Positions 1-9,375 of a stretch of DNA of 9,375 bases are shown piece by piece (within the stretch, counting starts at the first letter, position 1; every line of letters starts with the position of its first letter). The stretch spans positions 1 to 9,375 of the forward strand of contig WTGE01000266.1 of NCBI GenBank assembly GCA_011525445.1, written 5' to 3'. The translations under genes were made by a program, and so were the position numbers. The notes below the pieces were generated by a model. The model saw only the letters and a list, made by a program, of their open reading frames with translations, had not been told where the DNA came from and ran no database searches. The stretch comes from Synechococcus sp. CO36386bin_37 (GTDB lineage Bacteria > Cyanobacteriota > Cyanobacteriia > PCC-6307 > Cyanobiaceae).

Positions 1-239
1 AAGTTGATGTCAAGCCAATCAAAAGTGGTTGCAGCATTGCGAAGTGCACCCCCAAGAATGCCTCGTCTTGTGAAGCCGAAATCGTTACTGATATACCAAT
101 CGGTAGCTGGCCAGCTTGCTGGGCCTAGGTGTTTGAGGTTGGCGTATCCGGTAGCGGCCGCTAAGAGAGCAGGTATTGCCATCATGAAGGTCACAATCCT
201 TTTCGAGTTATTTCTGAAATTGCTCGATGTGAATTTCAT
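1..239 (-). CDS. N-terminus of a second GT-C-like polytopic membrane protein (paralogue of the gene at 793-2148), cut by the window edge
   Basis: Seen: reading leftward from an ATG at 239-237, the frame stays open for 79 codons to the window edge, so the C-terminal part is missing. A hand alignment with the protein encoded at 793-2148, started at its internal Met (2127), gives about 54 identities in 79 residues without a gap. The shared block includes WYISNDFGFTRRG, LGG, and AATTFDWL. There is a basic N-terminus and then a hydrophobic segment (residues ~15-32), as in the paralogue. Start choice: the base sequence just upstream aligns with that of the paralogue but is out of frame with it, so ATG 239 is the first start shared by both copies. 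A GAGG lies directly against the ATG, too close for a normal ribosome site. Inference: it has the same function as its paralogue, perhaps with another acceptor, and arose by tandem duplication. Function is unproven. Confidence 0.85.
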   Translation of the reverse strand, partial: MKFTSSNFRNNSKRIVTFMMAIPALLAAATGYANLKHLGPASWPATDWYISNDFGFTRRGILGGALRNAATTFDWLDIN

Positions 240-309
240 GCCTCAATACGTTTGTTTGCACTGATTCCGAGAATCATAATGCAATCAGTAAGCAGATTAA
301 ATGATTTGT

Positions 310-550
310 ATTGATTGCGATTCAATCGTTTCCTCAATTCAGGCATGAAGATGTGCCCTTTGTTGTCATGATTGATGCTTTCCTCTCATTAGTGAGTAGA
401 GGAAGTCTCGTTTGATGTTAATCGTTTTCGGCTTTGAATCCTTGGCCAGGTCAAGCTTCTCACCTCCTGCTGCTATTTCTTCATCGAGTTGGTCTACCAC
501 CCCCAACAGCCGTGGTGTCGCTGTAGGTCAATCAGCCGCAGCTCCATCCC
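310..550 (-). pseudogene. dprE1: Decayed copy of the dprE1 3' end
   Basis: Seen: this stretch aligns with about 2198-2440, the last ~80 codons of the intact dprE1, at an offset drifting from 1886 to 1890 bases through small indels. Read on the minus strand it gives VDQLDEEIAAGGEKL, then AKDS, then IKRDFLYS, matching the intact VLDQLDDEVAGAGGRL, AKDS, FKRSYLLFS. After a 2-base loss the match continues in another frame as INHD...IFMPELRKRL against INHD...IFMSDLGKRL. An in-frame TGA at 530-528 replaces a Val codon. The second frame ends in a TGA that overlaps the ATG of the membrane gene at 239 (GCATGA). Upstream of 550 only patches still resemble dprE1, for example near 570-630 (TGCTCAAGC, ACTGGCTTC). 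Inference: a remnant of a tandem duplication and not a working gene. Confidence 0.85.
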
Positions 551-792
551 CACAGCAGTGACCACTGCTTGAGCAGGGCCTGGTAGTGACATTCATGAAG
601 AAGCCAGTTGATTATTCTCTGCCTACCCAAGCAGCGGATTTGTTTGATTAAGAGATCCTGTGAAATTTCCAAGACCTGACACATGCGCATTGAAAAGAAG
701 CAAGTCTGTGAGCAGTAGAAAGGGATGGACCGCTACCTTGATGTCTTTTGCAATAAAAAATTGAATAACTTCCTGAAATGTGCAAATAATAT
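551..792. other. Low-GC spacer without a supported gene
   Basis: This is the stretch between the 3' end of the membrane protein gene and the recognisable dprE1 remnant. I see no ORF worth calling. Patches on the minus strand resemble more upstream parts of dprE1: around 603-615 (ACTGGCTTC, as in the TGF of the intact gene) and, weakly, around 715-735 (CCATCC). The remnant may therefore extend here with large deletions. A 7-base perfect inverted repeat with a 2-base loop (AGCAGTG AC CACTGCT) lies at 554-569. It has no following T-run in either direction, so I do not call a terminator. Confidence 0.5.
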
Positions 793-2148
793 CTACGTTA
801 TTAATTTAATCAAGGCTTTAGCGCGAACTAACAGTGGATTGAAAAGCCATAGTTTTACGTTCCACCACACTGCAGAATGAGGAAGTGTGGTGAAACAGCT
901 GATAAAAATAAGAGTTAGATTGAGCCATCTTGATCCGATGCGTGACAATGGCCATTTGCCTTTCGAGGGAAATATCGATGAAAGTATTACCGCTGCTGAT
1001 GCGATGTGCTTTTGATAGATCAAACAAGTAGCCAGTATTAATGTCAGAGAAACGGAAAGCCATCGACCATAGTCGATCGCTAAAATATACAAAGGAGCAT
1101 TAAAAATTGCCGTCACACCGCAGAGACCGGCCAGTAAAGCTGCGATGGCATAGCGAATATCTGTGGATGTTTTACTAATGCTGCTTTCCACAAGAGGAAC
1201 GAAACATGCTGCTATCAAGGCAATGACATAGCCAAACGTAAAAATCCATTCAACGTAGATCTCTGGGCTTCCATAGGAGGCCATAATTGTATCGAAATAG
1301 CTGCTACTACTGTTCCCATGATTTTCTGTACCCGCCAAGGCCATTAATGCAGATGGAAGCGGAATGCACGATAAATCTGAATAAACACTCTGCCAGGATC
1401 TGCAGATTGCTTCCACCTGTTCAACAGGGGGTGTGGAATAGAAAAATGCAGCAAGAAGAGCAATCAGTGCTGGAATGAAAAGGCACAGGGATCTTGCCAA
1501 TGGCAAAAGTGCTGAGAATACTTTGCTCCAATCGCGGTTTCTGTTGATCCAGTTAATGACCATTACAAAGACAAGAATAGGTGCGCAGAAGAAAAAGATT
1601 GCTTCGTGAACCAGCGTTAGCAACGGCAGGGTGAGTGCAACAAGTATTGTAGATATTGTATTCAAATATCGCTTTTTGGCGTTCGCAAGCATCAAATAGA
1701 TCAGTACAAAAATGATTGCCAGGGAATCTTTTCTTCCTCCTCCCGCTGGGTCCCATAGGATGAAATTCTGATAAAATACTGGCGAGAATGCTAAGGCCAG
1801 TTGAGCGGAAAGACTGATCGTTCTTGCTTTGAGGATCAAAAGGACGGTGACAGCAAAAATGGCAATGATTGTGAGCAGATATGCGAACCAGTTGACACTA
1901 AGCCAATCAAAAGTGGTTGCAGCAGCTCGAAGTGATCCCCCAAGTAGGCCTCGCCTTGTGAAGCCGAAATCGTTGCTGATATACCAATCGGCAGCCTGCC
2001 AGCTCGCTGGGCTGAGGTCTGTGAAATAGATGTATCCGTGTAGGGCTGCTAACAGGGCAGGCGCAGCCATGATGAAGCTAACGATCCTCCTTGAGGCGTT
2101 TTTGAAACAGCTCACTGGGAATTCCATGCCTTGAAGAAGTTTGTGCAT
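793..2148 (-). CDS. Polytopic membrane protein, GT-C-like, candidate glycosyltransferase
   Basis: I do not recognise a named family with certainty. Seen: 451 residues, roughly ten or more hydrophobic segments, and four conserved-looking polar motifs near membrane edges: DFGFTRRGLLGG (60-71), DPAGGGRKD (133-141), a HE pair (181-182) within a hydrophobic region, and DYGRW (359-363). A soluble-looking loop with three Cys lies near 249-285. Acidic and Arg motifs set in a multi-pass protein fit GT-C glycosyltransferases or polymerases that use polyprenyl-phosphate sugars. This is inference, supported by the position 39 bases after dprE1. Start: ATG 2148 gives the longest frame. ATG 2127 is an equally good choice because only from there does the N-terminus align with the paralogue at 1-239. 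Neither has a good ribosome site. Sampled GC is near 42 percent, well below the genes upstream. A transporter or polymerase role cannot be excluded. Confidence 0.8.
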   Translation of the reverse strand: MHKLLQGMEFPVSCFKNASRRIVSFIMAAPALLAALHGYIYFTDLSPASWQAADWYISNDFGFTRRGLLGGSLRAAATTFDWLSVNWFAYLLTIIAIFAVTVLLILKARTISLSAQLALAFSPVFYQNFILWDPAGGGRKDSLAIIFVLIYLMLANAKKRYLNTISTILVALTLPLLTLVHEAIFFFCAPILVFVMVINWINRNRDWSKVFSALLPLARSLCLFIPALIALLAAFFYSTPPVEQVEAICRSWQSVYSDLSCIPLPSALMALAGTENHGNSSSSYFDTIMASYGSPEIYVEWIFTFGYVIALIAACFVPLVESSISKTSTDIRYAIAALLAGLCGVTAIFNAPLYILAIDYGRWLSVSLTLILATCLIYQKHIASAAVILSSIFPSKGKWPLSRIGSRWLNLTLIFISCFTTLPHSAVWWNVKLWLFNPLLVRAKALIKLIT

Positions 2149-2440
2149 GAAAGTCTTGGAAAGTATGCTGTAGTTGAAAGTTCTGCTTTATTTTCTGTAG
2201 GTGAAGCCCAATCTTTTCCCCAGGTCAGACATGAAGATATTGCTGGTGCGGTCATGATTGATGGTTTTCTCCCATCTGGAGAATAGAAGGTAGCTTCGTT
2301 TGAAATGAATAGATTTTTGCCTTGAATCTTTGGCCATGTAAAGCCTCCCGCCTGCTCCTGCTACTTCGTCATCGAGTTGGTCCAGCACCTTCAACAGCCC
2401 TGGCACCGCGGCAGGTACATCAGCCGCCAAGGTCCATCCT
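1889..2440. repeat. Source copy of a tandem duplication (dprE1 3' end plus membrane gene 5' end)
   Basis: Bases 1889-2127 match 1-239 at a constant offset of 1888 without indels, for example AAGCCAATCAAAAGTGGTT and GTGAAGCCGAAATCG in both. Bases ~2198-2440 match ~310-550 with a few small indels. The material between the two blocks (the spacer from dprE1 stop to membrane gene start) is only partly alignable. The repeat period of about 1.89 kb equals dprE1 tail plus membrane gene plus spacer. The other copy leaves the window at position 1, so the full repeat length is unknown. Confidence 0.85.
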
Positions 2441-3582
2441 GGGATTGGAAATGAAAGCGGTGAGGGGTTGCTGTCGCCAAAGCGCTTGAGCACTGTCAAG
2501 AAACTTGGTGCTCCAACGTTCCGAAGTGCTTCCAGGGTTCGTGGCACCAGGTGCGCCGCTTCATCGGGCACAGCAAACTGGTACTGGAGGAAGCCAGTCG
2601 GGCCGTAGATCCGGTTCCAGTCCTGTACGCCATCGAGAGGATGGAAGAACGATGCAATTTCCTGCAGTTCGCCAACGCGATGCTTGGGGGCCTTGCGATA
2701 CCAAGCTTCGTTGAAGGCTCGCACCGTGAACTTGTTCAGCAACCCCCGTGGCAGGAATGCCGGAGCAGATGCCAAGGCCCTCGGGTCGTAGAAGAGAGGA
2801 TCTGCTTGCTTGTTTTTGGGAAGTGTTTCCGCGGGGGCATGGTCGCCGCAGGTCAGCACTCCGCGCCCTTTGGCGTTGAGGCTGTCGACCCACGCCACAC
2901 TGTAACGATAACGACTATCAGCTTCCACCATCGCCGCCATCAGTGACTTCAGATCCCCGTAGCGGCTCGTATCGACGCTGATCAGCGAGCTTGTGATCGG
3001 AATCAGAGAGATCGTGGCTTCAACGATCACACCCGTGAGTCCCATGCCGCCAATGGTGGCCCAGAAGAACTCAGCTCCCTTTGAATTCCCACGGCCGCTG
3101 GGGGTCAGCTCTCTGAGCTCTCCTTTGCCATCAACCAGCAGCAGCCGCTGCACGTGGTTGCCAAAACTGCCATCCACATGGTGGTTCTTGCCGTGTACGT
3201 CGGCGGCAATCGCTCCTCCGACGGTGACGTTGCGGGTGCCAGGCGTCACTGGCAGAAAGAATCCCGCCGGCACAATCATCCGCAGGATCTGATCCAGGCT
3301 CACCCCAGCCCCAGCCGTGACCGTGCCACTGCCTTGATTCAGTTCAATGCGATTCAAGGCCGGAAGTTCGATCACCATGCCGTCTGCGAGTTGTGCCGCA
3401 TCGCCGTAGGAGCGTCCCAGCCCCCTGGCAATCAGCGACTGGGGTGGCGATAAACGGATCAACTGTCGTAGCTGCTCCATTGAGCTGGGTTGCACCACCT
3501 GGCTGGTGACGGGGTTGGTTCGGCCCCAGCCACTCAGCGTTCTGGTTTCAGACGAGAGGCCTTCTGGAAGGGTGATGGTCAT
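2188..3582 (-). CDS. dprE1: DprE1-like polyprenylphosphoryl-beta-D-ribose 2'-oxidase
   Basis: Family knowledge: DprE1 is an FAD enzyme that oxidises the 2'-hydroxyl of polyprenylphosphoryl-ribose to the 2'-keto form, which DprE2 then reduces to arabinose. Seen: 464 residues, close to mycobacterial DprE1 (~460), and alignable with it from memory over nearly the whole length. Shared blocks include LSGWGRT (16-22), IARGLGRSYGD (51-61), the FAD-binding stretch PGTRNVTVGGAIAADVHGKNHH (114-135, two segments), SFGNHV, FFWATIGGMGLTG, YGPTGFLQYQF (326-336), LSFPIPGW (376-383) and LYMAKDSR (414-421) with the active-site Lys418. The residue matching mycobacterial Cys387 is Ala386. Start: ATG 3582, 8 bases after the dprE2 stop. 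A longer frame to 3657 lies inside dprE2 and its extra 25 residues are unlike the family. The 3' end exists a second time as a remnant at ~310-550. Membrane-associated cytoplasmic or periplasmic location is not decided. Confidence 0.95.
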   Translation of the reverse strand: MTITLPEGLSSETRTLSGWGRTNPVTSQVVQPSSMEQLRQLIRLSPPQSLIARGLGRSYGDAAQLADGMVIELPALNRIELNQGSGTVTAGAGVSLDQILRMIVPAGFFLPVTPGTRNVTVGGAIAADVHGKNHHVDGSFGNHVQRLLLVDGKGELRELTPSGRGNSKGAEFFWATIGGMGLTGVIVEATISLIPITSSLISVDTSRYGDLKSLMAAMVEADSRYRYSVAWVDSLNAKGRGVLTCGDHAPAETLPKNKQADPLFYDPRALASAPAFLPRGLLNKFTVRAFNEAWYRKAPKHRVGELQEIASFFHPLDGVQDWNRIYGPTGFLQYQFAVPDEAAHLVPRTLEALRNVGAPSFLTVLKRFGDSNPSPLSFPIPGWTLAADVPAAVPGLLKVLDQLDDEVAGAGGRLYMAKDSRQKSIHFKRSYLLFSRWEKTINHDRTSNIFMSDLGKRLGFTYRK

Positions 3583-3590
3583 AGGTTGCT

Positions 3591-4346
3591 TCAGAGCCTT
3601 GAGGCGAGAGGAGCAGGGAGAACACGAATCAGCAGCATCAATGGTGCCCACCACCAAGGCAGGTATTCGATCCCTCGTCTGTTCGGATGACGCAGCAAGT
3701 CCCTCGTGACCGATTCAGGGCTGGCACATAGGGCTGGCGGCGCTTTGCCTACGGTCATTGGAGTGGCCATGAAACCAGCCTTGATGATGCGGACGGCAAA
3801 CGGCATGCCGTGGGAGCGCAGGAGCAACCCCTCACATAGGGCTGTAAGAGCGGCTTTCGCTGCTCCGTAGTGGTAGTTCGAGGGCCGGCCTCGATCGGCT
3901 GCTACCGAGCTGAACACCCATAACCGACCTGGCTTGGTCAGTCTTTCAGGGGTGGCAATGGCCGTGATCCAAGGGATTAACCCAGTGACGTTAGCGGCCA
4001 TGATCCGCAGGGCTTCAGCGGCATCATGGCGAGCAAGCTCTGCATCCCCGAGTGAGCCGGCGGTGATCAGATAGAGATCGAAAGTGCCCACCTGAGGCCG
4101 GTAGGCCAAGTTCGGAGCACTATCGACCAGCAGATCGGTCTGTTCCGTGCTGATCGCTGCGCCGTAGCTCTGCTCCAATTCCTTTGCCAACACTTGATTG
4201 GCTTCTCCATGGCGTGCCACTAGGTGGAACCGCCCGCAGCCACGTCTGGCTAATTCCCTGCAGATGGCCTTTGCCACTGCGCTGGTGCTTCCCAGGACAA
4301 AAGCACTGCGAATAGCGATGGGAACAACAGCAACTATTGCTGGCAT
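3591..4346 (-). CDS. dprE2: DprE2-like short-chain dehydrogenase (keto-arabinose-forming epimerase subunit)
   Basis: Family knowledge: DprE2 uses NADH to reduce the 2'-keto intermediate made by DprE1, giving polyprenylphosphoryl-beta-D-arabinose. Seen: 251 residues, as usual for the family. There is a Rossmann nucleotide site VLGSTSAVAKAICREL (17-32), then AGSLGDAE (96-103), Asn119 in AANVTG, Ser146/Ser147 in FSSVAADRGRPSN, and the catalytic pair Tyr160-Lys164 in YGAAK. Next comes VRIIKAGFMATPM (185-197), the position of the usual PG motif, here KAG. The C-terminus is hydrophobic with a WWWAPLMLLI stretch (231-240), which may dock to the membrane. The AGSLGDAE and SSVA-RPSNYHYGAAKA blocks resemble mycobacterial DprE2. 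The start at 4346 overlaps the upstream gene by 13 bases. A GGAG lies about 16 bases upstream, rather far. dprE1 follows after 8 bases. Confidence 0.92.
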   Translation of the reverse strand: MPAIVAVVPIAIRSAFVLGSTSAVAKAICRELARRGCGRFHLVARHGEANQVLAKELEQSYGAAISTEQTDLLVDSAPNLAYRPQVGTFDLYLITAGSLGDAELARHDAAEALRIMAANVTGLIPWITAIATPERLTKPGRLWVFSSVAADRGRPSNYHYGAAKAALTALCEGLLLRSHGMPFAVRIIKAGFMATPMTVGKAPPALCASPESVTRDLLRHPNRRGIEYLPWWWAPLMLLIRVLPAPLASRL

Positions 4347-5896
4347 TGTCGCCTGTTTGGTTCTCCTGCGGAAAAGGGAAGGATGCCGATGGCAGCAGCC
4401 AAGGCCACAATTGACCAGGGTGTGATCAGCCGTCGCAAAACTGCGATCGACAATGCCAATGCTGCCGGGACGCCTTCCTGGCCCAGGAGCAGCACTGTGG
4501 CCGCCTCATTCACGCCAATCCCGCCCGGTAGGAAAGAGGCGATGCCGGCAGTGCCTGAGAGCAGGTAAATGGTGATTGCTGAGGGGATGCCGATCGGAGC
4601 TGGTGCCAGAAGCCGTATTAGCAACCACAACACGAGGGCTTCGATTGCCCAGATCAGTACCGAAATCAAGATGACAGGAGGCATGCTGTTCGCTATGGCG
4701 CCGTTGGGGAGGTACTGACGCCAATGTTGCTGCTGGTTCTGCAACCAACGACGACAGGAGGGTTGCCTGGCTAGCAGCAGAGCAAAAGCCACGACCAGGG
4801 CCATGGCCAGGAGCCACTGGGCATCAAGAGATGGAATTCTGCTGAAAAGCTGATTGGGGGTGAGTACCAATAGCAGTAGCCCAAGGGCTGCTGCATCAGC
4901 ACAGCGTTCAGCAATGAAGACATGCACCAGCGGCAGCCTGGGATAACTGAGCTGTTCATGCAGCAGTTGCACGCGGCTCAGCTCACCCGCCTTGGCGGGT
5001 GTGGCTGTGAGAGCGAAACCACGGAACCAGCCCAGCAGATCAGGCCAACTCGGGCGACCAATGCCTAGGGATCCCAGCAGCAAGCGCCAGCGCCAGTACC
5101 GGCCTGCGTAACTGAGAGCCACCACCCCATAAAGAACTGGGAACAATTTGAGCAGGCTGGAGCCATGCCACATCAGATCAGCCTTTGCATCGGGGGCCAT
5201 GAACACCACTCCACTGAGGGCGACGAGGAGCAGTGCCAATGCCAAAAGGGGCACGATCCAACGACCATGCGTGGGCTGCGGATATGGCTTCGCCGTGCTG
5301 TGGAAGCTGCGCCAGTGAGGCTGGCCACTGGCCTGCAACAGCTCCCGGTCGCCCTGGCTGTCGCCATAGGACTCGAGTTGATCTGGCCCTGGAAGAAAGC
5401 CAAGGTGATGCTCCAGGCGCCGAAGCTTTTCAGGGCCTTTGCAGTTTGGAGTCGTCAAGCGCATGGGCCGGCTGGGCTCCACCTGAATGAGATCACTGCA
5501 ACCGGTTGCAATCAACTCCACCTCAAGATGCCTGGCAAGCGGGGCGATCAACGGCTCCGGAGAAGCTGTGACAATCAGGCAGCGATGGCCTTGGTGCTGA
5601 TGCCAGTGCAGGCGAGTTACAGCCTGGGGTTTCAGTTGTGCGATCAGCGTTGCGGGCAGCTGGCTCAGGGCAGTTTCTCGACGCCTCCGCGATGCTGCCT
5701 GGAGTGCCCGATTCAAGACAGTCGCCTTGATCTGAGCAGTGCTGCAACGTCTAAGACTCCAACTAAGCAGTTGCGGGGCAAGCATGCAAAGGTCAAGTGC
5801 CAGTTCGATCGGACCGCGAAGCAACAACAAAAATTTTCGCGTTGCATCTCCCTTGATTAGCGTGCCATCGCAGTCGAAAACAGCGATGTATTTCAT
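4334..5896 (-). CDS. Fusion: HAD-superfamily phosphatase plus UPF0104/LPG-synthase-TM (flippase-like) membrane domain
   Basis: Seen: 520 residues in two parts. Residues 1-~200 are a HAD phosphatase: motif I FDCDGTL with Asp8 and Asp10, motif II IVTASPE (Ser112), Lys153 in CKGPEKL, and motif IV YGDSQGDRELL with Asp179 and Asp183, so the catalytic set is complete. A helical cap occupies ~20-90. Residues ~212-508 hold about seven to eight membrane segments with the motifs of the AglD-like family: TPAKAGELSRVQLL (298-311), ERCADAAALG (330-339) and FLPGGIGVNEAA (455-466). Inference: the HAD part removes the 5-phosphate from polyprenylphosphoryl-ribose-5-phosphate, a step mycobacteria assign to a separate protein. 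The membrane part may translocate the lipid-linked sugar. Other substrates are possible for both. The ATG at 5896 overlaps the gtrA stop as ATGA, which suggests translational coupling. The HAD subclass looks SerB-like (type IB). Confidence 0.92.
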   Translation of the reverse strand: MKYIAVFDCDGTLIKGDATRKFLLLLRGPIELALDLCMLAPQLLSWSLRRCSTAQIKATVLNRALQAASRRRRETALSQLPATLIAQLKPQAVTRLHWHQHQGHRCLIVTASPEPLIAPLARHLEVELIATGCSDLIQVEPSRPMRLTTPNCKGPEKLRRLEHHLGFLPGPDQLESYGDSQGDRELLQASGQPHWRSFHSTAKPYPQPTHGRWIVPLLALALLLVALSGVVFMAPDAKADLMWHGSSLLKLFPVLYGVVALSYAGRYWRWRLLLGSLGIGRPSWPDLLGWFRGFALTATPAKAGELSRVQLLHEQLSYPRLPLVHVFIAERCADAAALGLLLLVLTPNQLFSRIPSLDAQWLLAMALVVAFALLLARQPSCRRWLQNQQQHWRQYLPNGAIANSMPPVILISVLIWAIEALVLWLLIRLLAPAPIGIPSAITIYLLSGTAGIASFLPGGIGVNEAATVLLLGQEGVPAALALSIAVLRRLITPWSIVALAAAIGILPFSAGEPNRRQCQQ

Positions 5897-6303
5897 CGCC
5901 CAGCGGAACGAAAACTCAGATGCTTATGTCCAAAATAGCTTGTAAAAGCAGGCACAGTTAGGCCAAAAATGTGGGCCATGAGATCGACAAGAGCCACAAT
6001 GCCAATGACTGGAAGTAGCAACTGTCGTAGGCCGATGCTCACTAGCCAAGTCTGCACGACCGCGACCAGGTTCACCAGAGCAAAGGCTGCAAAGGATCTC
6101 TTCACGCTCAGGCCACTGTTCGTGAACACGTAGCGGCGGGCGAGGATGAAGGCAATGATCATCCCGACTGCATAAGCGGCCAGTACTGCAAGCTCAAAGC
6201 TCAGTAGCGTTGAGAAGCCGACCCGGCTGATCACATTCACAAGAGCAGACGTGCCACTGGTGAGAACAAACAACAGAAACTGTCGACCCGAGCTGCTACT
6301 CAT
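5893..6303 (-). CDS. GtrA-family membrane protein, candidate lipid-linked sugar translocase
   Basis: Family knowledge: GtrA proteins are small four-helix membrane proteins thought to flip or assist transfer of polyprenyl-phosphate sugars. A mycobacterial member (Rv3789) sits beside dprE1. Seen: 136 residues with four hydrophobic segments (about 8-26, 36-54, 70-88, 98-118). The family signatures are FVLTSGTSALVNVISR near the start, AFILARRYVFTNSG (51-64), and the ending PAFTSYFGHKHLSF close to the C-terminus. Start: the frame is open further upstream, to 6489, but that part lies inside the oxidoreductase and is not GtrA-like. ATG 6303 overlaps the oxidoreductase stop by 8 bases and gives the normal family length. 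The stop overlaps the next gene as ATGA. Tight packing with the HAD-flippase fusion and dprE genes supports a role in the same lipid-sugar pathway. Confidence 0.9.
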   Translation of the reverse strand: MSSSSGRQFLLFVLTSGTSALVNVISRVGFSTLLSFELAVLAAYAVGMIIAFILARRYVFTNSGLSVKRSFAAFALVNLVAVVQTWLVSIGLRQLLLPVIGIVALVDLMAHIFGLTVPAFTSYFGHKHLSFRSAGR

Positions 6304-7744
6304 GCCCGTTGTTTTCACCTTGTAACGATTCAACGGCTTGGCTCGCCAATTGTCGTCCGAAGCCAATGCTCTCGCTAATCCCCCGATCTTCCGGATAGTA
6401 GGCGGTGGTGTCAGCGGTGAACACTCCAGGAAATGGCTGCAGCGGAGGCAAACTGTCTTGAAAATGCACACCACAGACCGGCTGGGCAAATCGGTATCGG
6501 CTGCAGTGACTGTTCAGTAAGTCAGCTTCGCTGAGCTGAGGGTTGATCGCCCTGAGGCAGGCCCAAGCATCAGCGATGAAGGCCTCGTTCGGCCGCTGGT
6601 AATCCGGATGATCCGCCGGAATGTAGAACGGTACGTAGGCGATATGACCCTGGAGAGATCGCAGGTTGCTCATCTCAATCACTCCGGGGATCGCGAAGCG
6701 CGCGTCGTTGACATTGGTCCAGAAATTGGCGGTAACCTGTCGCCGTGTTTGGAGCACGACGCAGGCACAGGCGACAGAAGGCAGGGTTCTGTAGCAGTCC
6801 ACCAAGCCGTCCTCCGCGCCACCAGCTTGCAGAACCGATGCCATGAGGGGCAGTGGCACGGTACTGATCACGCCATCGAAAGCCTTTTCCCCAGACGGTG
6901 TGGTCAACACGGCACCACCGGAGGGGAAGGGCTTGAGGCCCTTCACAGGGGTGCTGAGCTGAATCTCACCCCCGCCCGCTCGGATTGCATCCGCGATCGC
7001 ATCGATCAGCTGCTGGGAGCCTCCGTCCAAAAAACCGAGGGTTTCCTTCAGCCTGCGGCGCGACTGCCCCAGACGGCGGACCCGGCTCCAGATCCAGGCA
7101 GCTGAGATCTGATCGCTGTAGTGGAAGAACTTGTAGGCGAATAGCTTGTGCCAGAGCACCTGATAACCCTGTTCTCCTAACCAGCTGCGCAACCATTGGG
7201 TGGCGGTTATCCGATCGAGGCGACTCCAGTTCCGGATCGTGAGGCAGCGGGCCGCGTGCAGCAGGTAGCGAAACCGGATGAGCCAAGGAAGCCGCCAAAA
7301 GCCCAGAACCGCCCCCACGGATCCCCAGGGATAGAGGTGCCCATCCAGGTAGAAGCCCATCTTGGTGTTGCGCCAATGAAGCTGATCTTCCAGGCCCAGC
7401 TCTCGGAGCACTTGGAACAGTGCCGTGTCGCTGAGACAATGAAAGTGGTAATAGCGCTCCAGTTGCATTCCGGCGAACTCAAAGCAGGCCGCCATGCCGC
7501 CGAGGCGATCATCAGCCTCGAGCAAGACCGGCCTTTGCCCCAACCGTGTGAGCTCATAGGCCACTGCCAGCCCCATCGGGCCGCCACCAATGACTGCTAT
7601 TCGAGACTTTTGGTGATTGAGGTGAGTCACTGCAACGGCATCTCCATCCGGCTGTGGCAAGGGGTCTGATAGCTGAGCCTCAGTGCTTCCTCCAGTGGTG
7701 CAGGGATGACCGAAAAGATCCCCGGTCAATTGATGAGTTTGCAT
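6296..7744 (-). CDS. FAD/NAD(P)-binding amine-oxidase-like oxidoreductase (UDP-galactopyranose-mutase/protoporphyrinogen-oxidase-like fold)
   Basis: Seen: 482 residues from ATG 7744. A dinucleotide-binding motif IAVIGGGPMGLAVAYEL (~49-65) is followed by an acidic residue ending the second strand in LLEADDRLGGMA (~74-85), as in amine-oxidase and UDP-galactopyranose mutase type flavoproteins. The C-terminal FAD contact is probably DTTAYYPEDRGISESIGFGRQLA near the end (two runs). A central region rich in Trp, Tyr and His (FYLDGHLYPWGS, HKLFAYKFFHYSD) fits a sugar or lipid substrate pocket, but I cannot name the substrate. The first ~45 residues are not family-like. A GTG at 7630, just before the Rossmann strand and with GGAG 11 bases upstream, is a plausible alternative start. 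gtrA overlaps its stop. It has no counterpart in the minimal mycobacterial arabinose-lipid pathway, so its role in this locus is open. Confidence 0.85.
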   Translation of the reverse strand: MQTHQLTGDLFGHPCTTGGSTEAQLSDPLPQPDGDAVAVTHLNHQKSRIAVIGGGPMGLAVAYELTRLGQRPVLLEADDRLGGMAACFEFAGMQLERYYHFHCLSDTALFQVLRELGLEDQLHWRNTKMGFYLDGHLYPWGSVGAVLGFWRLPWLIRFRYLLHAARCLTIRNWSRLDRITATQWLRSWLGEQGYQVLWHKLFAYKFFHYSDQISAAWIWSRVRRLGQSRRRLKETLGFLDGGSQQLIDAIADAIRAGGGEIQLSTPVKGLKPFPSGGAVLTTPSGEKAFDGVISTVPLPLMASVLQAGGAEDGLVDCYRTLPSVACACVVLQTRRQVTANFWTNVNDARFAIPGVIEMSNLRSLQGHIAYVPFYIPADHPDYQRPNEAFIADAWACLRAINPQLSEADLLNSHCSRYRFAQPVCGVHFQDSLPPLQPFPGVFTADTTAYYPEDRGISESIGFGRQLASQAVESLQGENNGHE

Positions 7745-7929
7745 CAACAGCCAGTGGTGCTGCCGTTACCGGCGTGGAGCATGACAGAGGCATCGCACAG
7801 CCTGATCGTTGCTGCACGAAGCTGGCCTTCAATGTTGGAGAGGTCTGGGGAAGACATGACTGCGGGGAAGTGCTCAAAAGCAACGGTTTGCGGTTTTTGA
7901 TCGACCACGCACAAGGATCCAATCGGCAT
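7744..7929 (-). CDS. Doubtful small ORF between the UbiA and oxidoreductase genes
   Basis: Seen: a 61-codon frame from ATG 7929 (MPIGSLCVVDQKPQ...) whose TGA overlaps the ATG of the oxidoreductase as TGATG, a pattern typical of coupled genes. I recognise no family, no membrane segment and no motif. There is no clear ribosome site. It lies in the 248-base gap 7748-7995, the longest gap inside the cluster. It may be chance, a decayed gene, or part of a leader region. Real only if related genomes keep the frame. Confidence 0.2.
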   Translation of the reverse strand: MPIGSLCVVDQKPQTVAFEHFPAVMSSPDLSNIEGQLRAATIRLCDASVMLHAGNGSTTGC

Positions 7930-7995
7930 GGTTGCTTTGCAGCAGAGCGATCAGATTCAGACTTCCCCAGGCCTGTCGCCCCAAGACCAGATCTC
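7748..7995. other. Intergenic gap within the cluster
   Basis: Apart from the doubtful small ORF above, I see an inverted repeat CTGGGGAAG (7845-7853) / CTTCCCCAG (7962-7970) with a 108-base loop, and a third GGGGAAG at 7864-7870. The loop is too long for a simple terminator. No T-run follows the UbiA gene. I cannot point to a clear -10/-35 promoter for the downstream genes. Confidence 0.4.
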
Positions 7996-8940
7996 TTATC
8001 CAAACAGTCCCCCTGCGGGAAGCAGACCCGCATGATTGCTGAAGCCCACGACCGCGACGGTGAACAGCCAGCTCATCAGAATGATTTGTATGCCTCGGTC
8101 CCTCAGCAGGATCTGTTCCGGTTGCTCACAGGTTTTCTCGATTGGTGCGAAAAGACGGCGGCTGACCTCCTCTGGATCACTTATCAATTGATAACGAAAG
8201 ATTCCTATCAGAACAAAAGGCACGCTCAGGAGCATCCAGCTCGATGATGCGCCCCTTGTGTCCAAAGCTGGCCCTGCGGCCCAAATGGAATAGCTGATAA
8301 ATGCACTTGTTGATAACAAGCTTTCAAACCGTAGTAACAAGGGGAGCGAGTAGCGAGTCAGGACTTGGCGAGTCACCACCCCACGATCCAGGTCGATTTG
8401 TAATTCGGCCTTACGTTTCTCCACCGCCAGGAACATCGCCAGCAGCCCAACCGTCAAGAGGAACCAGGGAGATAGGGCAATTCCTGCGGCAACACCGCCG
8501 GCTATGGCTCGCAATAGGAACCCGGAGCCGATGCAGCACAGATCCAACAACGGTTCGCGTTTGAGGCGCAGGCAATAGCCCACCTGAACCAGCGCGTACG
8601 CCAAGGTCACCACCGCCAGCGGTGCTGTTATTGCTCCTGCAAGCGTCAGACTGCTGACGGCCAACAGTGCTGATGCAGCCAGTGCCATGGTCACAGACAC
8701 CAGCCCTGCTGCAATCGGGCGATAGCGCTTGCGGTGATGCTGGCGATCGGCCTCGATGTCAAGGCTGTCGTTCAGCAGGTAAACGGCACTTGAAACCATG
8801 CAGAACGCCACCAGGGCTCCACAAGCGGGAAGCCAAATATCTGAGTCGAAACGAAAGCTAAAGAGCGGTGCTGCAAACACAAGTAGATTTTTGATCCACT
8901 GCCTGGGCCTGCAAGATCTGACAAGCGCTATGAACGTCAT
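7996..8940 (-). CDS. UbiA-family polyprenyl-phosphate phosphoribosyltransferase (DPPR-synthase-like)
   Basis: Family knowledge: DPPR synthase (mycobacterial Rv3806c) transfers 5-phosphoribose from PRPP to decaprenyl phosphate in the membrane, the first step to lipid-linked arabinofuranose. Seen: 314 residues with about eight to nine membrane segments. Features typical of this subfamily are RPRQWIKNLLVFAAPLFS (11-28), the aspartate-rich first motif NDSLDIEADRQH (57-68) followed by KRYRPIAAG (71-79), and the second motif region GYCLRLKREPLLDL (121-134) with GFLLRAIAGG (140-149). EKRKAEL follows at 174-180. RP-QWxKN together with the RPIAAG motif separates it from ubiquinone, chlorophyll and haem UbiA members. 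Start: ATG 8940. A TTG one codon upstream is less likely. No strong ribosome site is visible, only a GAGGG about 15 bases upstream. It is first in the cluster, 100 bases after the hrcA stop. It is separated from the next gene by 248 bases. Confidence 0.92.
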   Translation of the reverse strand: MTFIALVRSCRPRQWIKNLLVFAAPLFSFRFDSDIWLPACGALVAFCMVSSAVYLLNDSLDIEADRQHHRKRYRPIAAGLVSVTMALAASALLAVSSLTLAGAITAPLAVVTLAYALVQVGYCLRLKREPLLDLCCIGSGFLLRAIAGGVAAGIALSPWFLLTVGLLAMFLAVEKRKAELQIDLDRGVVTRQVLTRYSLPLLLRFESLLSTSAFISYSIWAAGPALDTRGASSSWMLLSVPFVLIGIFRYQLISDPEEVSRRLFAPIEKTCEQPEQILLRDRGIQIILMSWLFTVAVVGFSNHAGLLPAGGLFG

Positions 8941-9040
8941 CAAAGAGTGAACACCCTCACGCAGCTTTCTTATTCCAGAAACGCTGCTTCGTCGTATCTG
9001 GTTGGGTTCCTTGAAACATGTCTGTTTAATTCGATGTCGG
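8941..9040. other. Intergenic region between hrcA and the UbiA-family gene
   Basis: This 100-base region would have to hold the promoter of the cluster if it is not read through from hrcA. A TTGACC lies at 9039-9034 on the minus strand, but the hexamer 17 bases on is ACATGT, a poor -10. No hairpin with a T-run is visible after the hrcA stop. No CIRCE element (the usual HrcA operator) is seen. Confidence 0.4.
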
Positions 9041-9375
9041 TCAAGACAGCAGCAGGTCTAGGTGGCGGGCGACCCGCTGCACAGCCGCGTGGGCTGTGGC
9101 ATAGGCCATTCGCATTGGCCCCACTAACGCCACCTGTCCCACCCCTTCCTGACCGCAGCGGTAAGGGGCCTGCACCACAGAACAGGCCTGCAGGGCCTTC
9201 TCTGGATGCTCTTCGCCGATCCAGACGCCCGGATGATCCGTGGCGCTCACCACGGCACCCGGCTGGTCATCGATGAGCTCCAGCAGTGGCCGCAGCTCTG
9301 TTGAGCTGCGGAACTCCGGCTCGGCTACCAGCCTGGACAGGCCATGCACTACGAGGGGTGTTTCTGGAGACATGG
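9041..9375 (-). CDS. hrcA: C-terminal part of the heat-shock repressor HrcA, cut by the window edge
   Basis: Family knowledge: HrcA binds the CIRCE operator and represses groESL/dnaK-type heat-shock genes; GroEL modulates it. Seen: about 111 codons ending in TAG at 9043-9041. The C-terminal core reads GVWIGEEHPEKALQACSVVQAPYRCG, in two runs, then GVGQVALVGPMRMAYATAHAAVQ and VARHLDLLLS. The IG-E-P, C-V-APY and LGPMRM-Y pattern is the conserved end of HrcA, in its cyanobacterial form. The frame stays open to the right edge, so the N-terminal DNA-binding domain and most of the GAF-like domain lie outside. The ATG at 9373 is internal, not the start. hrcA is a housekeeping gene and marks the border of the sugar-lipid cluster. 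Confidence 0.9.
   Translation of the reverse strand, partial: MSPETPLVVHGLSRLVAEPEFRSSTELRPLLELIDDQPGAVVSATDHPGVWIGEEHPEKALQACSVVQAPYRCGQEGVGQVALVGPMRMAYATAHAAVQRVARHLDLLLS

Follow-up and report, generated by a model that had tools for sequence, protein, structure and literature searches.

We analyzed a stretch of 9,375 nucleotides from Synechococcus sp. CO36386bin_37 (assembly GCA_011525445.1, contig WTGE01000266.1; the whole stretch is hereafter called the window). Judged from its genes, a minus-strand cluster in this window probably makes polyprenyl-phosphoryl-beta-D-arabinofuranose and passes it to a membrane glycosyltransferase. By sequence comparison the cassette is a mosaic, joining an actinobacterial-type DprE1 and a cyanobacterial-type UbiA protein to a short-chain reductase (SDR) that is a diverged relative of the PRK07102 type found beside DprE1 in Rhizobium. 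The best-known sources of D-arabinofuranose are mycobacteria and related bacteria, in which the pathway that makes it is targeted by drugs.

An earlier note on this DNA had described a UbiA-type protein, a HAD phosphatase, DprE1, a DprE2-like SDR and GtrA on one strand, and profile and open reading frame (ORF) evidence confirmed all five on the minus strand, within 2188–8943. Reading right to left, the order is the end of hrcA, UbiA, a flavin adenine dinucleotide (FAD)-dependent oxidoreductase, GtrA, a HAD phosphatase fused to an LPG_synthase_TM domain, the SDR, DprE1 and a membrane protein that we call TMx. The same note had called these genes mostly overlapping; this was true of ORFs such as that of GtrA, but 248 bp separate the UbiA and FAD oxidoreductase ORFs, with the remnant of an epimerase gene in and beside the gap. 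The FAD oxidoreductase ORF (7747–6296) and the membrane protein (2148–793) had been omitted from it.

In the pathway that we propose, the HAD domain would take off the 5-phosphate, DprE1 would oxidize C2, and the SDR would reduce C2 with inversion to give lipid-linked arabinofuranose. The LPG_synthase_TM domain and/or GtrA would carry this product to the periplasmic face, and TMx, a putative GT-C type enzyme with Asp-Trp after its first membrane helix, would attach arabinofuranose to a surface glycan, lipid or protein. The DprE2 role of the SDR, the substrate of the phosphatase, the flippase, the transferase role of TMx, the polyprenol length and the acceptor are the parts of this scheme that we infer.

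Enzymes of the putative donor pathway

The UbiA-type polyprenyl-phosphate phosphoribosyltransferase (7996–8943, minus strand) passed the equivalog model for decaprenyl-phosphate phosphoribosyltransferase, NF008978, with 268.6 bits against a cut-off of 207, and scored below cut-off on two further models that share this name (235.7 of 474 and 183.6 of 234). In the PDB it matched 8j8j (E 1e-52). Ten of the twelve residues that hold phosphoribosyl pyrophosphate (PRPP) and Mg in Rv3806c, as listed in PMC10994848, were kept (R22, K28, Y70, N73, D77, K87, R90, Q135, Y138 and K143). Tyr157 was replaced by Phe, a change that the paper also notes for some mycobacterial species, and Lys208 by Gln; the paper further describes the phosphoribose-binding residues as not conserved across the UbiA superfamily.

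DprE1, of the decaprenylphosphoryl-ribose 2-oxidase type (ORF 2188–3657, minus strand; a probable start near 3582 gives a 464-aa form), passed its equivalog model NF053785 (532.1 against 500) and matched PDB 4aut (E 8.5e-114) as well as the DprE1 chain of entry 21gq. The matches of UbiA and DprE1 to their models were almost full-length. Compared with the solved enzyme, 11 of 14 DprE1 positions checked were kept, including Y60, H132, K134, R325, Q334, Q336, K367 and K418, and the changed positions were Y314F, N385T and C387A. C387 is the residue that benzothiazinones bind and K418 is catalytic; the numberings of the two mycobacterial species are offset by 7.

The SDR (3591–4346, minus strand) failed the DprE2 equivalog NF053786 (93.1 against a cut-off of 250) and also its nearest family, PRK07102 (NF005489; 166 against 267). 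Nevertheless, its best PDB match was the DprE2 chain 21gq_C (E 1.5e-12); a YxxxK motif was seen by eye. It adjoined DprE1 in all 21 picocyanobacterial loci compared, namely the window, Cyanobium usitatum (L001), six Prochlorococcus loci and 13 from other Cyanobiaceae. In three of the 21 loci (L037, L117 and L122) the contig breaks off close to the cluster. On NCBIfam models, four picocyanobacterial SDRs scored 146–166 for PRK07102 and 82–112 for DprE2, the one planktonic actinobacterial SDR that we scored reached 357 against 250 on the DprE2 model, and the SDR beside DprE1 in Rhizobium passed PRK07102 with 359 against 267. Synteny and the best PDB relative suggest a DprE2-like role for the window's SDR, in which it would reduce the 2-keto product of DprE1.

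We then counted these genes in 201 Cyanobiaceae genomes, some of them incomplete, so that absences are uncorrected counts. DprE1 was present in 14 at E 1e-60 or better, 13 of which exceeded the model cut-off, and UbiA was present in 12, all inside the DprE1 set (Fisher 1.4e-17); the UbiA frame of G425 contains a stop codon. In the two DprE1 genomes without UbiA (G447 and G495) the contig ends at the cluster, and G495 retains a piece of UbiA. Among 14 named control genomes, a DprE1 or UbiA match at the same thresholds was found only in Corynebacterium glutamicum. Family identity of the two enzymes, and their co-occurrence, are thus established at the sequence level. Together with the curated scores and the PRPP-site residues, this co-occurrence gives good support to a polyprenyl-phosphate-arabinofuranose donor, as the earlier note had proposed. 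In a sample of the whole phylum, 16 of 386 genomes had a DprE1 match of at least 341 bits, the next best genome reaching 81, indicating that the cluster is a patchy accessory trait and not a standard cyanobacterial one.

Candidate flippases and transferase

The HAD-IB phosphatase forms the first ~200 residues of a 520-aa protein (4334–5896, minus strand), the remainder of which is a flippase-like LPG_synthase_TM domain (PF03706; 113.3 against 33.4, E 2e-32). The HAD part scored 92.6 bits on PF12710 (cut-off 27, E 5.5e-26) and 58.9 on TIGR01488 (cut-off 45), fell short of TIGR01490 (79.3 under 98.3), and shows DxDGT and GDSxxD motifs by eye. It is assigned by family, and its substrate in the pathway is presumptive. 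The earlier note had set the HAD phosphatase beside the phosphatase of the mycobacterial pathway; PMC11127046 (Kelly et al. 2024) describes Rv3807c as unrelated to HAD-family phosphatases. The fusion was found in 14 of the 21 loci and at full length in 11 of the 201 genomes, all inside the DprE1 set of 14. Within this set, G447 matched in the membrane part alone, with stops, and G412 and G425 had no match to the fusion protein; outside it, three weak matches (E 1e-11 to 1e-15) were confined to the membrane part.

GtrA (ORF 5893–6489, minus strand; judged by eye, its probable start is near 6303) overlaps its neighbor and scored 36.5 bits on PF04138 against a cut-off of 26.1. Next to it lies the FAD oxidoreductase of the PRK07233 family (ORF 6296–7747, minus strand; NF005560, 452.8 bits against 252), the true start of which is probably within the ORF. 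Each was present in 10 of the 21 loci: both together in nine, one alone in two and neither in ten. In the 201 genomes the FAD oxidoreductase was found in seven, six of them inside the DprE1 set (Fisher 2.4e-7). The suggestion that GtrA may flip the lipid-linked sugar therefore stands only in part. The gene is present, but the phosphatase carries a fused LPG_synthase_TM domain that is a second candidate and, at 14 against 10 loci, the more constant partner, so that GtrA is not clearly the flippase of this pathway. In alphaproteobacterial rows, however, GtrA adjoins DprE1. Based on domain matches, either protein or both may serve as flippase. The name gtrA is also used, in PMC11851481, for a glutamate transporter gene, which is different from the GtrA discussed here.

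In the only one of the 201 Cyanobiaceae genomes with the FAD oxidoreductase but without DprE1 (G474), the genes next to that of the oxidoreductase encode an LPG_synthase_TM protein and a GT2 transferase (L143, 296–3623); the best NCBIfam models of the latter were PgfS and an ArnC-type transferase, both under cut-off. This neighborhood, a single 3.7-kb contig, suggests that the FAD oxidoreductase and LPG_synthase_TM perhaps form an accessory pair that serves polyprenyl-phospho-sugars generally.

The epimerase remnant, from a nicotinamide adenine dinucleotide (NAD)-dependent enzyme (7633–7960, minus strand), consists of two tblastn pieces, residues 14–38 at 7960–7889 (60%) and residues 271–312 at 7758–7633 (52%). 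The gene is whole in Cyanobium usitatum (L001, 5012–5950), and nine of the 21 loci, eight besides that one, had an epimerase match. The Cyanobium usitatum order of UbiA, epimerase, FAD oxidoreductase, GtrA, HAD-LPG_synthase_TM, SDR and DprE1 is identical to that of the window save that the window has only the remnant.

No transferase had been named for the pathway in the earlier note. The best candidate in the window is TMx (793–2148, minus strand), a protein with nine predicted helices by a simple hydropathy count that matched neither a Pfam nor an NCBIfam family at E 0.01 and is possibly a GT-C arabinofuranosyltransferase. When a low-confidence structural model of TMx was compared with known structures, the first 25 rows were all GT-C by title, including AftA, AftB, AftD, EmbA-EmbB and EmbC; a control model from the single sequence (predicted local distance difference test score 45, predicted template modeling score 0.28) gave no GT-C entry among 50 rows. 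A PDB sequence search with the TMx alignment gave no match, and Foldseek gave nothing at E 0.001, which counts as no evidence against a GT-C fold. Searched against 196 membrane ORFs of the loci, the TMx profile scored its own family alone, and every other cluster inspected stood at no more than 1% probability, so that kinship to GT-C enzymes is not visible by sequence. The family motif is mostly [DE]W, followed by GF-x-RRG.

TMx relatives lie within ~1 kb of DprE1 or UbiA in L117, L119, L037, L038 and L134, the last with two such genes in tandem near DprE1. In G185, found independently of the rows of the profile, a relative lies 3.1 kb from DprE1. In the phylum sample the family was enriched in genomes with DprE1 (4 of 16 against 3 of 370; Fisher 6.5e-5), also when the two genomes that contributed to the profile were removed (2 of 14 against 3 of 370; Fisher 0.012). 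It is quite conceivable, if in our view somewhat the less probable case, that TMx is another membrane glycan protein, such as a polymerase or the transferase of another sugar, and that the arabinofuranose transferase is encoded outside the window. The three genomes with TMx but no DprE1 and the low confidence of the model fit such a role, as do the absence from L038 of the acidic residue that we propose as catalytic acid, and the other membrane proteins, a few of them PMT, GT87 or TMEM260-like, that take the place of TMx in most DprE1 loci. The enrichment in DprE1 genomes, and the GT-C structures that head the comparison and are missing from the control, argue for TMx as the transferase.

The left end of the window carries a duplication. 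The repeat at 12–549 has its other copy at ~1900–2439 (blastn 73.7% over 552 columns, E 1.3e-81; spacing ~1888 bp) and contains a broken, stop-bearing second copy of the DprE1 3' end (320–599, minus strand; two tblastn pieces of 44% and 55% identity; repeats D2 and D3) and the first part of a second TMx copy that runs off the window (3–242, minus strand; tblastn 69% over 80 residues, profile E 1.1e-23). From these contents, TMx together with the end of its neighbor was probably duplicated in tandem.

The cluster might instead make another polyprenyl-phosphoryl pentofuranose, carrying ribose, xylose or a 2-keto sugar, should the SDR be no true DprE2 and the pocket of DprE1 be altered. The SDR scores under both cut-offs and the three DprE1 substitutions leave room for this, as do the epimerase matches; PMC11127046 describes a possibly related one-gene epimerase that converts the donor to xylofuranose. 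Nevertheless, DprE1 passes its own cut-off, the SDR beside it in every locus has DprE2 as its best solved relative, and the epimerase has been lost in the window. We therefore regard this alternative as unlikely. Still less probable is a locus that is decaying and no longer works in its host. The epimerase remnant, the broken DprE1 3' copy and the tandem duplication would be in keeping with decay, but the reading frames of UbiA, the FAD oxidoreductase, GtrA, the HAD fusion, the SDR, DprE1 and TMx are open throughout, DprE1 and UbiA are nearly full length against their models, the DprE1 lysine and histidine are kept, and the broken piece belongs to a second copy. That UbiA is an ordinary prenyltransferase of the quinone, heme or chlorophyll type with unrelated neighbors is very improbable: such enzymes share its fold (PF01040), but their models gave at most ~40 bits and a prenyltransferase model without a specified role gave 49, compared with 268.6 for the phosphoribosyltransferase, and UbiA mostly keeps its phosphoribose-binding residues and co-occurs with DprE1.

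Host and mosaic ancestry of the cassette

To place the host of the proposed arabinofuranose cassette, we used the hrcA gene fragment, the 3' part of a heat-shock repressor gene that flanks the pathway (9041–9373, minus strand; PF01628, 1.5e-21). The HrcA fragment was 73% identical to that of one Cyanobiaceae genome (G272) and 53–67% to those of eight others, two of these matches covering residues 35 or 38 to 110 alone. Identities were 33–35% in two other cyanobacteria and 32–37% in three actinobacteria, and three of the 17 genomes searched, two Prochlorococcus and one actinobacterium, had no match to the fragment. The host is thus a member of the Cyanobiaceae, in agreement with the cyanobacterial origin first suspected. 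Close DprE1 homologues, among 120 of 8000 matches listed, include those of Synechococcus sp. 8F6, at 81% identity, and of a Cyanobacteriota metagenome-assembled genome.

The genes of the cassette differ in their closest relatives. Taking the best four matches of each group, DprE1 of the window was 59–60% identical to actinobacterial and 41–45% to other cyanobacterial DprE1. UbiA was 45–49% identical to other cyanobacteria and 40–42% to actinobacteria, and the SDR 34–38% and 32–35%, respectively. The actinobacterial loci were the best 80 of a longer scan.

A DprE1 tree of 62 rows drew on 27 of the 74 loci in the mainly actinobacterial group and on 11 of the 13 other cyanobacterial loci. In this tree the 21 picocyanobacterial rows formed a clade (100) that was sister to planktonic actinobacteria (99) inside the actinobacterial part of the tree. 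This phylogeny, which the earlier note had called for, thus nests picocyanobacterial DprE1 inside Actinobacteria and apart from other cyanobacteria. In the UbiA tree (58 rows), four other cyanobacteria joined the picocyanobacteria (90, not starred). A separate clade (99) held 25 of the 26 actinobacterial-group rows, the remaining locus, titled Chloroflexota, falling elsewhere. The SDR tree (62 rows) placed the 27 actinobacterial-group rows in a clade of their own (100) without picocyanobacteria, the branch of which was long and unplaced. These were quick trees without bootstrap, with several rows of unusual amino-acid make-up and few other phyla, and the direction of transfer is read from nesting alone.

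Approximately unbiased (AU) tests rejected a grouping of picocyanobacterial DprE1 with the four other cyanobacteria (p 1e-45) and an actinobacterial DprE1 clade that excludes picocyanobacteria (p 0.009). They also rejected UbiA with planktonic actinobacteria (p 4e-17) and, weakly, the SDR with planktonic actinobacteria (p 0.034); all four p values are optimistic because the groups were chosen after the identities and trees had been seen. The identities, trees, AU tests and NCBIfam scores together indicate that DprE1 and the remaining genes have different histories. Three loci titled Bifidobacterium breve or Rubrivirga (L009, L025 and L026) carry a DprE1 as similar to that of the window as the planktonic actinobacterial ones are, and their titles look wrong; the DprE1 of L009 falls among planktonic actinobacteria in the tree.

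A conserved chromosomal site beside hrcA was considered and rejected, as DprE1 and hrcA are at least 168 kb apart in G272, G336, G538 and G491. In G270, DprE1 starts ~9.6 kb from the hrcA start, and in the remaining genomes hrcA either lay on another contig than DprE1 or gave no match. Being close to the cassette in the window and no more than ~10 kb from it in G270 (L119, 46–720), but far from it in four other genomes, hrcA perhaps marks a shared island edge. Among viral contigs there were three pattern matches, none of them a DprE1 relative, and phages gave no match. DprE1 relatives at E 1e-20 were found on 64 plasmid records, one of them from the cyanobacterium Kovacikia minuta.

Related systems and wider meaning

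PMC11127046 proposes that the ribo-, xylo- and arabinofuranose of bacterial glycans share one point of entry, lipid-linked ribofuranose made from PRPP, and associates arabinofuranose-containing bacterial glycans with DprE1/E2 homologues. By linking these homologues to the glycans of other bacteria, it removes the premise that the pathway is confined to mycobacteria. The word stem 'cyanobacter' was not found in the main text of that paper. A literature search combining DprE1, cyanobacteria and arabinofuranose found nothing. Judged by title or the start of the abstract, and with subscription papers mostly outside the search, no report on D-arabinofuranose synthesis in cyanobacteria appeared among the papers listed, and those on DprE1 and cyanobacteria included none on a cyanobacterial pathway.

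With the mycobacterial pathway (Rv3806c, Rv3807c, DprE1/DprE2 and Rv3789), the window shares a UbiA protein with PRPP-site residues, DprE1, a DprE2-like SDR and a GtrA-like protein. In contrast, its phosphatase is a HAD enzyme fused to a flippase-like domain, its SDR is nearer to PRK07102 than to DprE2, and Pfam found no Emb or Aft domain in the eight window proteins searched. The three-component pentofuranose system of Citrobacter youngae, as described in PMC11127046, likewise has a PRPP-based polyprenyl-phospho-pentofuranose donor, a HAD phosphatase and a flippase candidate. In that system UbiA is the fusion partner of the phosphatase and the flippase belongs to the MATE type, whereas in the window the partner is LPG_synthase_TM and the cluster includes GtrA. 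A GT-C candidate occurs in both, GT136 there and TMx in the window. Of these components, the window has the synthase by curated score and the HAD phosphatase by family, the flippase being recognized by domain and the GT-C enzyme by fold comparison only.

The plasmids pR132503 of Rhizobium leguminosarum and pAK3 of Paracoccus also carry UbiA, GtrA, DprE1 and SDR in one row, annotated by family only. They differ from the window in a HAD-UbiA fusion (seen in Rhizobium, the sole one examined), in a DprE1 of a different clade (40–44% identical, three compared) and in other unknown proteins downstream. Two hypothetical proteins of ~500–540 aa follow the SDR on the Rhizobium and Paracoccus plasmids (L146, 8179–11357; L149, 6092–9162) and are possible transferases; the Rhizobium pair matched neither Pfam nor NCBIfam models. 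An acyltransferase gene separates DprE1 from the SDR in Azospirillum. Planktonic actinobacteria (Nanopelagicales and kin) share with the window the DprE1 that is sister in the tree, but not close kin of its UbiA and SDR.

Given the systems of Kelly et al. 2024 and the plasmid cores of Alphaproteobacteria, the pathway in the window belongs to a known kind, and the idea of the donor is not new. What is new here is the mosaic cassette, the phosphatase-flippase-like fusion, TMx as a possible GT-C enzyme and the broken DprE1 end and epimerase remnant, in a host group for which no report was found. More tentatively, and as an idea that we would not yet favor over its negation, some picocyanobacteria, including marine Prochlorococcus, may carry surface D-arabinofuranose. 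They would make it with a DprE1 from planktonic Actinobacteria of the same waters, a cyanobacterial UbiA, a diverged DprE2 and a fusion of phosphatase and flippase. The last step would fall to an undescribed, exchangeable GT-C family acting as strain-specific transferase, making arabinose a variable surface mark. If picocyanobacteria do have a patchy, mosaic version of this pathway, a new surface sugar could be tested for in common aquatic bacteria. It would also be a case of a DprE1 gene that moved from one phylum to another, and the candidate GT-C family and the phosphatase-flippase fusion would join the short parts list for lipid-linked pentofuranoses.

In one cyanobacterium outside the Cyanobiaceae, a second, diverged DprE1-like protein is encoded in the same cluster (L129, 9720–11024).

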